Positions 8,316 through 62,177 of a stretch of DNA of 64,000 nt are shown one piece after another. The translations under genes were made by a program, and so were the position numbers. The notes below the pieces were generated by a model that was not told where the DNA came from, did not search any database, and saw only the letters and a list, made by a program, of their open reading frames with translations. Source of the DNA: Halobaculum sp. MBLA0147 (lineage in GTDB: Archaea; Halobacteriota; Halobacteria; Halobacteriales; Haloferacaceae); NCBI RefSeq assembly GCF_041361345.1, contig NZ_JBGKAD010000001.1, forward strand, positions 1,612,001 through 1,676,000, written 5' to 3'. Position 1 is the first letter of the stretch. The number at the start of each line of letters is the position of its first letter.

Positions 8316-8969
8316 CTACGCACCCAACAGCGCGTCGCGCACGTCGCCGATCTGTGCGCCCTCGACGACGATGGCGAGGCGGTCGCCGGCCTCGATCTCG
8401 GTGCCTGGCAGCGGGATGGTGAGCGACTCGCGCTCGCGGCCGTGAGCGTAGATCCGCGCGCCGTCGACGGAGAGGTCGTTGACGCGGCGACCGACGACGG
8501 GGGCGTCCTCGGTCACGGTGACGGTGGTCAACTGGAGGTCCTCCGTCAACTCGCCGATGGCGTTGAAGTTCCCCCCGAGCAGTGCGGTCTTCGCCCCCGC
8601 GGCACCGAGCCGTTCGGGGTAGATCACCTCGTCGACGGAGGCCTCGTACTCGTCGTAGATCTCGTCGGGTACGTCCTCCGAGAGCCGCATCACGGTCCGG
8701 CAGCCGTACTCCTTCCCGAGCGAACAGATCTCGAAGTTCGTCGTCGGGTTCCCCGTGAGTCCGGCGACCGCGTCGGCGTCCTCGATGCCCGCCTCCTCCA
8801 GGACACTCGGGTTCGAGGCGTCGCCCTCGACGACGGTGAACCCGCGTTCGCGGGCTGTCTCGGCCTTCTCCGGCACGTTCTCTACCAGTGTCACGTCGTG
8901 GCCCTCCTCGTCGAGGACGCGTGCAGTGCGCGATCCGACGCGACCGTAGCCGGCGATGACGACTCGCAT
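8316..8969 (-). CDS. TrkA-type NAD-binding potassium channel/transporter subunit
   Basis: A 217-residue stand-alone RCK protein. The N-terminal Rossmann motif is VVIAGYGRVGSRTARVLDEEG (GxGxxG, acidic residue after beta-2 at VTLVEN), followed by a C-terminal RCK_C/TrkA-C domain (TTVTVTEDAPVVGRRVNDL, AGDRLAIVVEG). Such subunits gate Trk-type K+ uptake in response to NAD(H) or ATP. No TrkH membrane partner lies nearby. The ATG has an AT-rich stretch about 25 bases upstream that is shared with the divergent lipoprotein gene. Confidence 0.9.
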   Translation of the reverse strand: MRVVIAGYGRVGSRTARVLDEEGHDVTLVENVPEKAETARERGFTVVEGDASNPSVLEEAGIEDADAVAGLTGNPTTNFEICSLGKEYGCRTVMRLSEDVPDEIYDEYEASVDEVIYPERLGAAGAKTALLGGNFNAIGELTEDLQLTTVTVTEDAPVVGRRVNDLSVDGARIYAHGRERESLTIPLPGTEIEAGDRLAIVVEGAQIGDVRDALLGA

Positions 8970-9030
8970 ACTCGCAGGTGACGCTGGGTGGTACTAAAAA
9001 GAGTGGGTCGCGGGGCGCGTCGCGTCTGGT

Positions 9031-9840
9031 GTGCTCGTGTTGGAAAGAGTGGTGGGTTCACACGTGATCGAGAGCACAAAACACACTACAGACGAGACCG
9101 AGGCCGGGGGTGTGCGACGGAGATCGGTTCTCGCGGCCGCAGTCGGAGTGTCGCTCTCGGGGTGTCTGAGTGTGTTCGGCGGGGACGACGGGTCACCCAC
9201 GCCGACGGCGAGCGAGCGGCCGAGCCCCACGCCGACCGCCACCGAGTCACCGACGCCGAGCGACACGCCGACGGACACGGACTCGTCCACGCCGACCGAC
9301 GCCGAGCCGGAGACCGACGACCCGACGGCGACACCGCTGTGTCCCGGTGACGGGGGACGGCGGGTCCCGTTCGGAACGACCGTTCGGTTCGACGGCTGGG
9401 CCGTGACGATCCAGTCGCTGGAGTTCACACAGACGTACCGACTGGAAGACGAACCGGGGACACAGCGGACCGCCGACGGCGAGCAGTTGGTGATCGTCGA
9501 GGGTGAGATCACCAACGACACCGCCGACGAGCGCACGTGGTGGTTCGACTCCGGTGTGACGCTGATCCTCCCCGGGTGTGTCACCGACGACTACCAGTTC
9601 CGGCCCAGGATAGGCACGGGTGATTACTACGATCGAGTTCGAGCGGTGAAGCTCGAACGCGTCGGTCACCTCGACCAGTTCCTACCGGAGGTCGGCTACG
9701 AGCTCGACGCGAGGGAGACGGGACCACTCTGGAACGTGGCGACGATCGACGCCGACCTCGAGCGATCGGACCTCGAGATCGGCGTGAACTACGGGCCCGA
9801 CGTCGAGTCGACGCGGTGGGTGCCGGAGCTGTCGGGGTGA
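9031..9840 (+). CDS. Tat-type lipoprotein of unknown function
   Basis: About 269 residues. The N-terminus has RRRSVLAAAVGVSLSGC, a twin-arginine-like signal ending in a lipobox, as is usual for exported haloarchaeal lipoproteins. A Thr/Pro/Ser/Asp-rich linker (about residues 50-105) precedes a beta-rich domain (TVRFDGWAVTIQSLEFTQ, VIVEGEITNDTADERTW) that resembles DUF4352-type immunoglobulin-like domains. GTG 9031 fits the TACTAAAAA element about 30 bases upstream; GTG 9064 is an alternative. Function unknown. Confidence 0.75.
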   Translation: MLVLERVVGSHVIESTKHTTDETEAGGVRRRSVLAAAVGVSLSGCLSVFGGDDGSPTPTASERPSPTPTATESPTPSDTPTDTDSSTPTDAEPETDDPTATPLCPGDGGRRVPFGTTVRFDGWAVTIQSLEFTQTYRLEDEPGTQRTADGEQLVIVEGEITNDTADERTWWFDSGVTLILPGCVTDDYQFRPRIGTGDYYDRVRAVKLERVGHLDQFLPEVGYELDARETGPLWNVATIDADLERSDLEIGVNYGPDVESTRWVPELSG

Positions 9841-58003: not shown

Positions 58004-58167
58004 CCTTCAGTTCGGAGTCGGGCCCGTCGCCTCGGAGCCGTCGCCGGTCGCCGATCCAGAGCCACCGCGTGACCGTGATCGTGTGGCGGATTACGGACCA
58101 GACCACGCGACGCGACCGCGAACGTGTGGAGAGAACGCTTAACTCCGTCCGACAGGTACGCGGAGTT

Positions 58168-58728
58168 ATGCAACACGTGAAGGTTCCCGACGACCGCGTG
58201 GGCGTTCTCATCGGCGAGGGAGGTGAGACGATGCGACGGATCGAACAGCGAGCCGAGGTGCGACTCGACATCGACTCCGAGACCGGTTCGGTCGGCATCG
58301 AGACGGTCGGCGACCCCGTCGCCGGGATGGTCGCCCCGGACGTGATCCGCGCCATCGGCCGCGGGTTCACCCCGGACGCCGCGCTGACACTGTTGGACCA
58401 CGACCTGCGACGCTTCGACCTGATCGACCTCGCGGAGAAGACCCGCAACAAGAACGACCTCCGCCGCCAGAAGGGCCGACTGATCGGCGAGGACGGCCGG
58501 ACACGCGAACTGATGGAGGAGCTGTCCGGCGCCGAGGTCGTCATCAAGGGCTCGACACTGGGCGTGATCGGCCAGCCGGAGGAGGTCCAGGCCGTCCGGC
58601 GCGCCGCCGGGATGATCCTGGACGGCGCGCCACACGGCGCGGTGTACTCCTTCTTGGAACGGAAACACAACGAGATCCACGGCACGCCGGACCTCTCGCC
58701 GCCGAGTCCCGAGGACGGCTCGCCGTAG
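58168..58728 (+). CDS. KH-domain ribosome assembly factor, Dim2/Pno1-like
   Basis: 186 residues from ATG 58168 (MQHVKVPDDRVGVLIGEGGE). The two KH domains have GxxG loops VGVLIGEGGETMRR and QKGRLIGEDGRTRELMEELS. The middle VAPDVIRAIGRGFTPDAALT and end HNEIHGTPDL complete the Dim2/Pno1 pattern. In archaea it helps mature the 16S rRNA 3' end. TATA-like GCTTAACT (58137-58144) about 24 bases upstream supports the start. It converges with the second sliding clamp gene. Confidence 0.88.
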   Translation: MQHVKVPDDRVGVLIGEGGETMRRIEQRAEVRLDIDSETGSVGIETVGDPVAGMVAPDVIRAIGRGFTPDAALTLLDHDLRRFDLIDLAEKTRNKNDLRRQKGRLIGEDGRTRELMEELSGAEVVIKGSTLGVIGQPEEVQAVRRAAGMILDGAPHGAVYSFLERKHNEIHGTPDLSPPSPEDGSP

Positions 58729-58734
58729 TCTCGC

Positions 58735-59622
58735 CTACCGCTGGATCCGCGGTGACACCAACGTCTCGACCGTCCCGTCTCCGTCCGCGAACCCGTACTC
58801 GAACCTGACCGGACAGTCTTCACCCAGTCGGAGCGCCACGTCGGTCCCGCCGGGGATCGCACGCGTCACCTCGTCCAAGTACACCAGCGAGAACAGCGAC
58901 TCGGCGGAGCCGGGCGACAGCGCCGGGAGATCCTCCTCGGCCAGTCGGACGGACACCTCGTCCGTGTCTCCGTCCGCGCGCACGAGGAACGCCGGCTCCG
59001 TGGGGTCGACCGCGAGCGTGGCGTAGTCCGCGACGAGGTCGACCGCCCCGACGAACCGCTCGATCTCCGCGACGGGGAGTGTACAGTCCGCGGTGTAGGG
59101 GAACGCCAACTCCTCGCGGTCCGGCGGCGAGAGAACGCTGTCGGGGTCGAGCGCAGCGACGCCGTACGACAGCTCCGGCAGGCGCACGTCGAGGTGCCAC
59201 GTCGCCGGGTCGACGGCGAGCGTCACCGGGTCGTCGCCGGCCGCGACGCCGACCAACTCCGAGAGTCGGCCGGCGTCGACCCCGACGGTCGTCCCGTCCG
59301 CCTCGTAGCGGTCGAACGCGGCGGCGTCGACGGTCACCGTCGCCAGCGCCACCTGCGCCGGGTCCGTCGCCTCCACCCGCAACGCACCCGGCTCGAAGTG
59401 GAACAGACACTCCTCGGCGACCGCCTCGACCGCGGCCAACGCCCGTTCGAGCCGCGCGACCGGGAGCGTCGCCGTGACCGGCGGGCGCCTGTGCTCGTCG
59501 CCGTCTGTCGTCGTGTCCCCACCGGACATCGCCCCGTTCACCGCCGTGTCGCCGCCGGTCGCCGTCCCGTCCGTCGCCGTGTGCTGCACGCCGCCGTCAC
59601 CGCTCGACTCCGACTCGCTCAT
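58735..59622 (-). CDS. Second, divergent PCNA-like sliding clamp
   Basis: 295 residues from ATG 59622 (MSESESSGDGGV). After about 45 low-complexity residues, the PCNA fold follows: RLERALAAVEAVAEECLFHF, VEATDPAQVALATVTVDAAA, an interdomain region ALDPDSVLSPPDREELAFPY, and a C-terminal domain with GSAESLFSLVYLDEVTRAIP and the end LVSPRIQR, which parallels PCNA1 ([20 protein letters not shown]). Conserved positions are weaker than in PCNA1, so it may form mixed rings or act in a specialised role. Confidence 0.85.
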   Translation of the reverse strand: MSESESSGDGGVQHTATDGTATGGDTAVNGAMSGGDTTTDGDEHRRPPVTATLPVARLERALAAVEAVAEECLFHFEPGALRVEATDPAQVALATVTVDAAAFDRYEADGTTVGVDAGRLSELVGVAAGDDPVTLAVDPATWHLDVRLPELSYGVAALDPDSVLSPPDREELAFPYTADCTLPVAEIERFVGAVDLVADYATLAVDPTEPAFLVRADGDTDEVSVRLAEEDLPALSPGSAESLFSLVYLDEVTRAIPGGTDVALRLGEDCPVRFEYGFADGDGTVETLVSPRIQR

Positions 59623-59735
59623 ACCAGACCACAGGGTCGTCCACGGCAAGAGGGTTTTCGTAACGCGAGTGGTAGGTAACCCGTATCAGGTTACAAATAT
59701 ACAAATAGTATGACGATCGTAATCGTTTTTGGATT

Positions 59736-60326
59736 ATGTCTGGCAGCAAAGGCGGAGACGGCGACGACCGCGATCGCGGTGTCCTCACGGCGGCCGACCG
59801 CGCGTACCTACGTGGAGAGACGGAGCCGTCGAGTACGCAGGTGGAACGGAACACGAGAGCACGGATCCGGGACCGCGTCCACGACGCACTGTTGGACTTC
59901 CCGGTGTTGGTCGAACACCTCTCGGACCGCGACCGGGAGTTGGTGTTCGGGGACCGACTCGACGCCGCCGGGCCGGCGGCGTTCGACGCGCTCGTCGCGA
60001 CGGTCGCGTTCCTGTACGACGGACTCGAGGAGACGGACCTCCCGTTCGAGACGGTGCTCGCGGAGGGGATCAACCTCGCAGTCGCCGACGACGAGCGGTC
60101 CGCGACCGTCTCGCTGGACGTGACGTTCCACGGACTGACGGCCGAGACAGTCCGCCGGAAGGCACGACAGGGCGAGTCGCTGTCGCTCACCGAGGTCGCG
60201 TTCGCCGACCGGTCCGACGAGGTGGACCTCGCGGCGGTGACCGACACCGTCGACGGACCGACCGAGACGGGCGACGACCGCGCGGTCGACGACGGCCGTA
60301 TCCAGGCCCGTGTGACCGACTTCTGA
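59736..60326 (+). CDS. Haloarchaeal protein of unknown function
   Basis: 196 residues. Starts MSGSKGGDGDDRDRGVLTAA then DRAYLRGETE, a common halophile N-terminal signature, followed by helices RIRDRVHDALLDFPVLVEHL, PAAFDALVATVAFLYDGLEE and the C-terminal SVDVTFHGLT-like strand (VSLDVTFHGLTAETVRRKAR). I do not recognise the family. Preceded by an AT-rich stretch (about 59690-59712). Downstream is the thermosome gene. Confidence 0.65.
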   Translation: MSGSKGGDGDDRDRGVLTAADRAYLRGETEPSSTQVERNTRARIRDRVHDALLDFPVLVEHLSDRDRELVFGDRLDAAGPAAFDALVATVAFLYDGLEETDLPFETVLAEGINLAVADDERSATVSLDVTFHGLTAETVRRKARQGESLSLTEVAFADRSDEVDLAAVTDTVDGPTETGDDRAVDDGRIQARVTDF

Positions 60327-60465: not shown

Positions 60466-60488
60466 AAGTGTGGACAATCAGAGAGTAC

Positions 60489-62177
60489 ATGTCTCAGCGA
60501 ATGGGTAACCAGCCGATGATCGTACTCTCGGAGGACAGCCAGCGGACCTCCGGGAAGGACGCACAGTCGATGAACATCACCGCAGGGAAGGCCGTCGCCG
60601 AGTCCGTCCGGACGACACTCGGACCGAAGGGGATGGACAAGATGCTCGTCTCCGACGCGGGCGACGTGGTCGTCACGAACGACGGCGTCACCATCCTCAA
60701 GGAGATGGACATCGACCACCCCGCGGCCAACATGATCGTCGAGGTCTCCGAGACGCAGGAGGACGAGGTCGGCGACGGGACGACCAGTGCGGTCGTCGTG
60801 GCCGGTGAACTCCTCGAACAGGCCGAGGACCTCCTCGACTCGGACGTCCACGCGACGACGATCGCACAGGGGTACCGACAGGCCGCCGAGAAGGCCAAGG
60901 AGATCGTCACCGACGCCGCCATCGACGTGTCCGCGGAGGACCGCGACACCCTCGAGCAGATCGCCGCGACGGCGATGACCGGCAAGGGCGCGGAGTCCGC
61001 CCGCGACACGCTGGCCGCGCTCGTCGTCGACGCCGTCCTCGCCGTCCGCGACGAGGAGGGCATCGACACGGACGACGTCTCCGTCGAGACGGTCGTCGGC
61101 GGCTCGATCGGCAACTCGGAGCTCGTCGAGGGCGTCATCGTCGACAAGGAGCGCGTCGACGACAACATGCCGTACGCCGTCGAGGACGCCAACGTCGCGC
61201 TGTTCGACGGGGCCCTCGAGGTCAAGGAGACGGAGATCGACGCCGAGGTCAACGTCACGGACCCGGACCAGCTCCAGCAGTTCCTCGACCAGGAGGAGGA
61301 ACAGCTCCGCGAGATGGTCGACCAGATCGTCGACGCCGGCGCGGACGTCGTGTTCGTCGGTGACGGTATCGACGACATGGCCCAGCACTACCTCGCACAG
61401 GAGGGCGTGCTGGCCGTCCGCCGGACGAAGAACACGGACCTGCGCCCGCTGGCTCGCGCCACGGACGCACAGATCGTCTCGAACCTCGACGACCTGACCG
61501 AGGACGACCTCGGCTTCGCCGGCTCCGTCGCCCAGAAGGACATCGGTGGCGACGAGCGGATCTTCGTCGAGGAAGTCGAGGACGCGAAGTCGGTGACGCT
61601 GGTGTTGCGCGGTGGCACCGAGCACGTCGTCGACGAGGTCGAGCGCGCCGTCGAGGACTCGCTGGGCGTCGTGCGCACCACGCTCGAGGACGGGAAGGTC
61701 GTCCCGGGCGGCGGTGCCCCGGAGACGGAACTGGCCCTGCAGTTGCGTGACTTCGCCGACTCCGTCGGCGGGCGCGAGCAGCTGGCCGTCGAGGCGTTCG
61801 CCGACGCGCTGGAGGTCATCCCGCGCACGCTGGCCGAGAACGCCGGACTGGACCCGATCGACTCGCTGGTCGACCTGCGTGCCCGTCACGACGGCGGCGA
61901 GTTCGGTGCCGGCCTCGACGCCTACACGGGCGAGGTCGTCGAGATGGACGAGGACGGCGTCGTGGAGCCGCTGCGCGTGAAGACGCAGGCCATCGAGAGC
62001 GCGACGGAGGCCGCGACGATGATCCTCCGCATCGACGACGTGATCGCCGCGGGCGACCTGAAGGGCGGCGGCACGGACGACGACGACGACGCCGCGGGCG
62101 GCCCCGGCGGTGCCGGTGGCATGGGCGGCGGCATGGGCGGCATGGGCGGTATGGGTGGCATGGGCGGCGCGATGTGA
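60489..62177 (+). CDS. Thermosome (group II chaperonin) subunit
   Basis: 562 residues from ATG 60489 ([20 protein letters not shown]). ATP-binding patterns: [35 protein letters not shown], the catalytic-type D in GDGTTS region and [19 protein letters not shown] near the C-terminus. The end is a typical GGM-repeat tail ([20 protein letters not shown]). Thermosomes fold proteins in double rings with a built-in lid. The upstream TATA boxes indicate strong, probably heat-regulated expression. Confidence 0.95.

Follow-up and report, generated by a model that had tools for sequence, protein, structure and literature searches.

A divergent second sliding clamp of haloarchaea encoded with a PIP-tailed partner gene across a twin-palindrome promoter

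In the sliding clamp PCNA of H. volcanii, Arg72 and Asp172 form an inter-subunit ion pair, and Met46 has been singled out as a residue of the PIP pocket (PMC2737543). PIP boxes are defined by the pattern QxxhxxAA, where h is L, I or M, and recruited archaeal factors, NucS and NreA among them, typically carry one at the C terminus (PMC4929162). Additional clamps have been described as well: duplicate PCNAs were reported in four haloarchaea in 2012, one of them traced to phage PhiCh1 (PMC3404096), and according to a 2020 review Thermococcus kodakarensis alone among euryarchaea has two PCNAs (PMC7776575).

According to the table of clamp matches, most of the 293 genomes sampled from the order have one clamp, but 86 hold at least two. 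The first-pass annotation of the locus described here took a single PCNA to be the rule in haloarchaea, which is right for most genomes but passes over these 86 and the published duplicates. Clamps were also found in the viruses PhiCh1, phiH, CGphi46, HSTV-1 and others when a virus collection was searched, and on 39 plasmids of a plasmid collection. Given the 2012 duplicates, the viral and plasmid clamps and the 86 genomes, a second clamp alone is ordinary for haloarchaea and not new. The most telling neighbour of the present clamp is the partner gene described below.

The window, the whole stretch of 64,000 nucleotides analysed from Halobaculum sp. MBLA0147, encodes the canonical clamp PCNA1 and a second, divergent clamp, PCNA2 (Table 1). 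The translated PCNA2 reading frame, 295 aa and a stop codon, fills its interval exactly. The two proteins are 40% identical (E 6e-54) in an alignment spanning the whole clamp. PCNA2 passes the Pfam PCNA_N model (23.0 bits, cut-off 20.3), and Pfam PCNA_C is not reported for it. With the NCBIfam model "DNA polymerase sliding clamp" it gives a real match (179.5 bits, E 8e-53) that lies below the curated cut-off of 207, whereas PCNA1 scores 348, which marks PCNA2 as a genuine clamp that has diverged. AlphaFold2, run with 12 relatives, predicts the clamp fold (mean pLDDT 84, the core mostly above 90), and the top Foldseek match of the model is the H. volcanii PCNA chain 3ifv_C (E 8e-26, TM 0.93 by target length). 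The core spans residues ~50-295; residues 1 to ~45-49 form an acidic extension that is predicted to be disordered, residues 1-45 being modelled with low confidence. Reading frame, alignment, family models and fold thus agree with the first-pass annotation in a second divergent PCNA-like clamp of 295 residues with an acidic 45-residue N-terminal extension, and the predicted fold, with H. volcanii PCNA as the nearest solved structure, bears out its expectation. The SPRIQ ending that it ascribed to both clamps exists in PCNA2 (SPRIQR) but not in PCNA1, which ends in APRIQSD.

Table 1. Position of the two clamps, the partner gene, the shared promoter elements and the flanking genes in the window
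Feature	Position	Strand	Basis or remark
PCNA1, canonical haloarchaeal clamp, 247 aa	19081..19824	+	alignment, Pfam/NCBIfam, tree
Dim2/PNO1-like KH-domain gene	58153..58728	+	PCNA2-side flank, context outside the module
PCNA2, divergent sliding clamp	58735..59622	-	translation, PCNA1 alignment, Pfam/NCBIfam, AlphaFold2 and Foldseek, trees
Palindromic site 1, GTAACC-CGTATCA-GGTTAC	59676..59694	.	between PCNA2 start and partner's TATA-like element
TATA-like element, AAATATACAAATA	59695..59707	+	between the two sites, ~30 bp upstream of partner ATG
Palindromic site 2, GTAATC-GTTTTTG-GATTAT	59719..59737	.	overlaps partner ATG (59736-59738); 43 bp from site 1
Partner gene, 196 aa, divergently paired with PCNA2	59736..60326	+	haloarchaea-specific superfamily
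Partner C-terminal PIP-box tail, DDGRIQARVTDF-COOH, core QARVTDF (QxxhxxF)	60288..60323	+	alignment
Thermosome subunit gene	60480..62177	+	partner-side flank, context outside the module

Several further clamps were met during the searches. The same genome encodes a third one (L003/L073, contig C4:93343-94164 of G000, a 226-kb contig), which is 31% identical to PCNA2, has a long acidic N-terminal region and a very long tree branch, comes without the partner gene, and probably derives from a plasmid or provirus. Another divergent clamp, apparently frameshifted, lies at 8783-9516 of the contig G003:C383 (L072), which also has homologues of the window's DUF7089 and DUF7090 genes. In an unrelated archaeal MAG (Dive96_bin4.290, L004) a PCNA gene and a thermosome gene stand in divergent orientation, an arrangement that is probably a coincidence.

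PCNA2 was originally described as lying beside Dim2 and the thermosome. Both are indeed neighbours, but the partner gene, which lies between PCNA2 and the thermosome gene, had been overlooked, and the dim2-thermosome setting was seen only in the genus Halobaculum and one other genus, whereas across families it is the divergent PIP-tailed gene that is conserved. When the partner was mapped onto the loci of relatives, it was found beside the PCNA2-like clamps first examined. Searches with the partner itself recovered full-length copies in 36 of 293 genomes of the order sample and in 14 of 170 of the family sample. The 45 partner genomes read (the 36 and nine more from the family sample, covering several families) all have a clamp gene divergently adjoining the full-length partner, and each of the 36 has at least two clamp matches. 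A comparison of 12 loci, which represent at least six families, shows nothing but clamp and partner to be conserved throughout within ~7 kb; its other gene clusters are shadow ORFs of the two or common to closely related loci.

One copy of the module lies on a 359-kb Halomicrococcus plasmid with identical layout. In another genome (G275:C1, L067/L158) PCNA2 (-), the partner (+) and PCNA1 (+) stand side by side. Within the genus of the window the module is lost in G001, where a C-terminal PCNA2 fragment with a stop (L071, G001:C65, 9972-10190) remains between dim2 and the thermosome gene and the partner is absent; in G193 (L132, G193:C1) a truncated partner overlaps a truncated PCNA2. In these two cases clamp and partner have decayed together. 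Dim2 was not found in the G003 assembly, which is fragmented, and PADLOC gave no defence-system match for the module.

The partner has no family in Pfam, NCBIfam, PHROGs or PADLOC. There is no significant Pfam or PDB match, and neither a known DNA-binding domain nor an enzyme family is detectable. A single-sequence AlphaFold2 model is poor (pLDDT 53), and a weak PDB similarity of residues 117-160 to protein 114 (2x4i, E 0.09) was judged to be due to chance. An alignment of 52 sequences reveals invariant arginines in its N-terminal domain. The partner belongs to a superfamily that, in the phylum-wide sample, is confined to Halobacteriales save for one marginal match (E 9e-4), and the partner was not found in the phages or viral contigs searched. 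Related to it is a large unnamed haloarchaeal group of ~200 aa proteins (L116-L131) with the signature RDRGILxPADRxYLxGE...RNxxARIRxR, in many of whose genes an ATAATC-N7-GATTAT palindrome overlaps the ATG. The superfamily consists of small proteins that probably bind DNA.

The last dozen residues of the partner are near-invariant, [DE]DGR[IV]Q[SA]x[VM]Tx[FY], and carry a relaxed PIP box, with Val or Met at the h position and a single aromatic residue, weaker than the classical QxxLxxFF. QxxhxxF/Y occurs no more than nine residues from the C terminus in 41/41 distinct partner genes, in 39 cases as the last residues of the protein, and in none of 15 paralogs that lack a clamp neighbour. The stretch just upstream of the tail varies in length and sequence, which fits a short motif at the end of a flexible linker.

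On the clamp side, Hv Arg72 is kept in 40/40 PCNA2s and Asp172 in 39/40 (Arg119 and Asp221 in the window's PCNA2), a pattern equally compatible with a homotrimer and with a mixed ring. The PIP pocket, whose residues the first-pass annotation had picked out for comparison, is retained in its C-terminal P-R but altered elsewhere in most of the 40 PCNA2s: Met46 is replaced by Ala or Ser in 27 and Leu125 by Phe or Tyr in 29. These changes are not universal, since the partner-linked clamps L089 and L098 are PCNA1-like at these positions and the window's PCNA2 has Leu93 at position 46, together with Phe174 at position 125. As for loading, the RFC C-terminal family has only two matches in the genome, so that no dedicated extra small loader subunit is seen; PCNA2 would presumably be loaded by the ordinary RFC.

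Between the two start codons lie 113 bp with two 19-bp imperfect palindromes, arranged with great precision. In 35/35 distinct loci the two copies (consensus ATAAYC-N7-GRTTAT) are 43, rarely 42, bp apart, and copy 2 ends at the partner ATG; in a further locus (L156) only one site exceeds the threshold. TTTATAT-type elements occupy the equivalent place in the aligned loci, and the distance of the window's TATA-like element from the partner ATG is that expected for a leaderless transcript.

By pattern search, exact TAAYC-N7-GRTTA occurs only twice in the window's genome, both times in the PCNA2/partner promoter; one-mismatch sites are as numerous as those of the reversed control. In a matrix scan, 10 of 16 clamp-less paralogs have the palindrome at their start or a short way before it, and two other paralogs have TACAC...GTGTA there instead. 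All 140 sites of at least 14 bits in 838 kb of loci lie in promoters of the partner superfamily, although these loci were chosen around superfamily genes and include some repeat copies, so that 140 overstates the number of independent sites. Across the order, the presence of sites per genome exceeds the reversed-pattern control only slightly, and unrelated repeats such as ATAATCACAGTAAGGTTAT are among the matches; for this reason the argument rests on position near superfamily genes and not on genome counts. That 19-mer and its variants recur at multiple positions in the genomes of a single family (for example G197, G169, G093 and G155) and resemble an independent repeat or the site of a mobile element. 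The fact that the palindrome travels with the gene, changes with the subfamily and, in the 838 kb scanned, is confined to superfamily promoters points to self-binding, though the palindromes could be read by another regulator.

A quick tree unites 40 partner-linked PCNA2s in one group (100% SH-aLRT), apart from PCNA1 and free of any viral or non-partner plasmid clamp; two partner-linked clamps, L089 and L098, fall outside it. In a careful tree of a trimmed set all 33 partner-linked clamps lie on one side of a branch with weak support (79/32), which becomes 100/99 for the 31 that remain when L089 and L098 are left aside. Phylogeny thus agrees with the first reading of PCNA2 as divergent, and places it with the partner-linked clamps, apart from PCNA1 and from the sampled viral and plasmid clamps. 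Two sources of PCNA2 were considered and rejected: a viral origin, since the clamps of viruses and plasmids form other groups and, with the exception of one plasmid, come without the partner, and a recent duplication of PCNA1, to which the trees lend no support. Two species of the genus Halobaculum share 58% identity in PCNA2 and 93% in PCNA1. Between close relatives dN/dS is ~0.16-0.36 for the clamp, disregarding the L087/L088 value as a wrong-ORF artefact, and ~0.10-0.26 for the partner; PCNA2 evolves fast, yet clamp and partner alike are under purifying selection.

A specialised role of PCNA2 is likely. For its nature, we give roughly even odds to an accessory clamp that is passed on together with a dedicated, divergently transcribed partner as a module of two genes; the partner would be an autoregulatory DNA-binding protein with a PIP tail. 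Such a clamp might be put to use in repair, under replication stress or on secondary replicons. Proteins of the partner superfamily would regulate their own genes by binding ATAAYC-N7-GRTTAT at the start codon, and in the module the two promoter sites ~43 bp apart would control both genes. Occupying these twin sites, the partner would hold down expression of pcna2 and of its own gene. Its C-terminal PIP box may dock on the PCNA2 ring at the PIP pocket, which would either change the occupancy of the sites or tether the partner to clamp-loaded DNA, and the outcome would be a clamp supply matched to need. The fuller form of this proposal, in which the partner, a site-specific DNA-binding protein, would sense by way of the PIP tail how much of its clamp is present or loaded and adjust both genes in return, is put forward as a tentative suggestion. 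To our knowledge, clamp-coupled gene control of this kind would be the first in a cellular organism.

The same tail can be understood differently. The partner may be a working client of PCNA2, an accessory factor of repair or replication that the PIP tail would bring to the clamp, in the manner of NreA and NucS (PMC4929162), in which case the palindromes would steady the partner's own level or bind an unrelated regulator, and PCNA2 would stand outside the regulation. Linkage, tail and the invariant N-terminal arginines would all fit a factor that acts on nucleic acids. Yet the presence of the palindrome at the starts of clamp-less paralogs, and of sites only in superfamily promoters, argues for self-binding, and no enzyme family was found for the partner, so that we regard a client as unlikely. 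Less probable still is the heteromeric ring raised in the first-pass annotation, in which PCNA1 and PCNA2 would be combined, in the way known from Crenarchaeota, and the partner would be specific for the PCNA2 face. Both faces of PCNA2 could pair with PCNA1, as the two ion-pair residues are kept in nearly all PCNA2s, and every partner genome of the order sample (36/36) has at least two clamp matches; but identical interface residues also permit a homotrimer, PCNA2 diverges fast (58% against 93%) with no matching change in PCNA1, and its patchy loss implies that PCNA1 does not need it.

Patchiness (36/293 genomes) could also recall a module left behind or carried by a mobile element or provirus and kept with no cellular role, or a defence module, and one copy does sit on a 359-kb plasmid, in a lineage whose viruses and plasmids commonly carry clamps. 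Against such an origin stand the chromosomal place shared by two genera between dim2 and the thermosome gene, purifying selection, the separate grouping of the partner-linked clamps from viral and plasmid ones, the failure to find the partner in the phages or viral contigs searched and the lack of a PADLOC match, which together make it very improbable.

The locus reveals a separate second-clamp clade in about one eighth of the sampled haloarchaeal genomes, accompanied by a dedicated, predicted clamp-binding protein and by promoter elements set out with precision, and brings to light an unnamed haloarchaeal superfamily with a putative DNA site. It offers a direct test of why cells keep two clamps and of how PIP-pocket specificity diverges.

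The nearest structural counterpart is the PCNA of H. volcanii (HVO_0175; 3IFV/3HI8), with which PCNA2 shares the fold (TM 0.93), the Arg72-Asp172 pair and the C-terminal part of the PIP pocket. PCNA2 differs from it in sequence (~38-40% identity), in the ~49-residue acidic N-terminal extension and in the remodelled PIP pocket, and, unlike it, is accessory, patchy and paired with a partner gene. The haloarchaeal duplicates of 2012 (PMC3404096), HacjB3_05215 of Halalkalicoccus jeotgali among them, and the clamps of PhiCh1, phiH, CGphi46 and HSTV-1 likewise represent an extra PCNA homologue beside the cellular one. Compared with virus and plasmid clamps, PCNA2 is mainly chromosomal and groups apart from those sampled, and the divergent PIP-tailed partner with its twin sites, which belongs to PCNA2, is absent from the virus and plasmid records examined, one plasmid excepted.

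T. kodakarensis too has a non-essential second clamp, PCNA2, and a small, lineage-specific PCNA-binding protein, TIP (PMC3984812, PMC4929162); TIP differs from the partner in its length of 64 aa and in its proposed role as a PCNA inhibitor. For clamp and partner together, the nearest working analogy would be gp45 of phage T4 with gp33 and gp55, transcription proteins that a linker-borne clamp-binding motif fastens to the clamp (PMC7892883). The T4 proteins bind RNA polymerase at late promoters, while the partner would act by site-specific autoregulation, and the likeness is drawn as an analogy with no claim of homology; within these bounds, the module may reveal clamp-coupled transcription outside phage T4.
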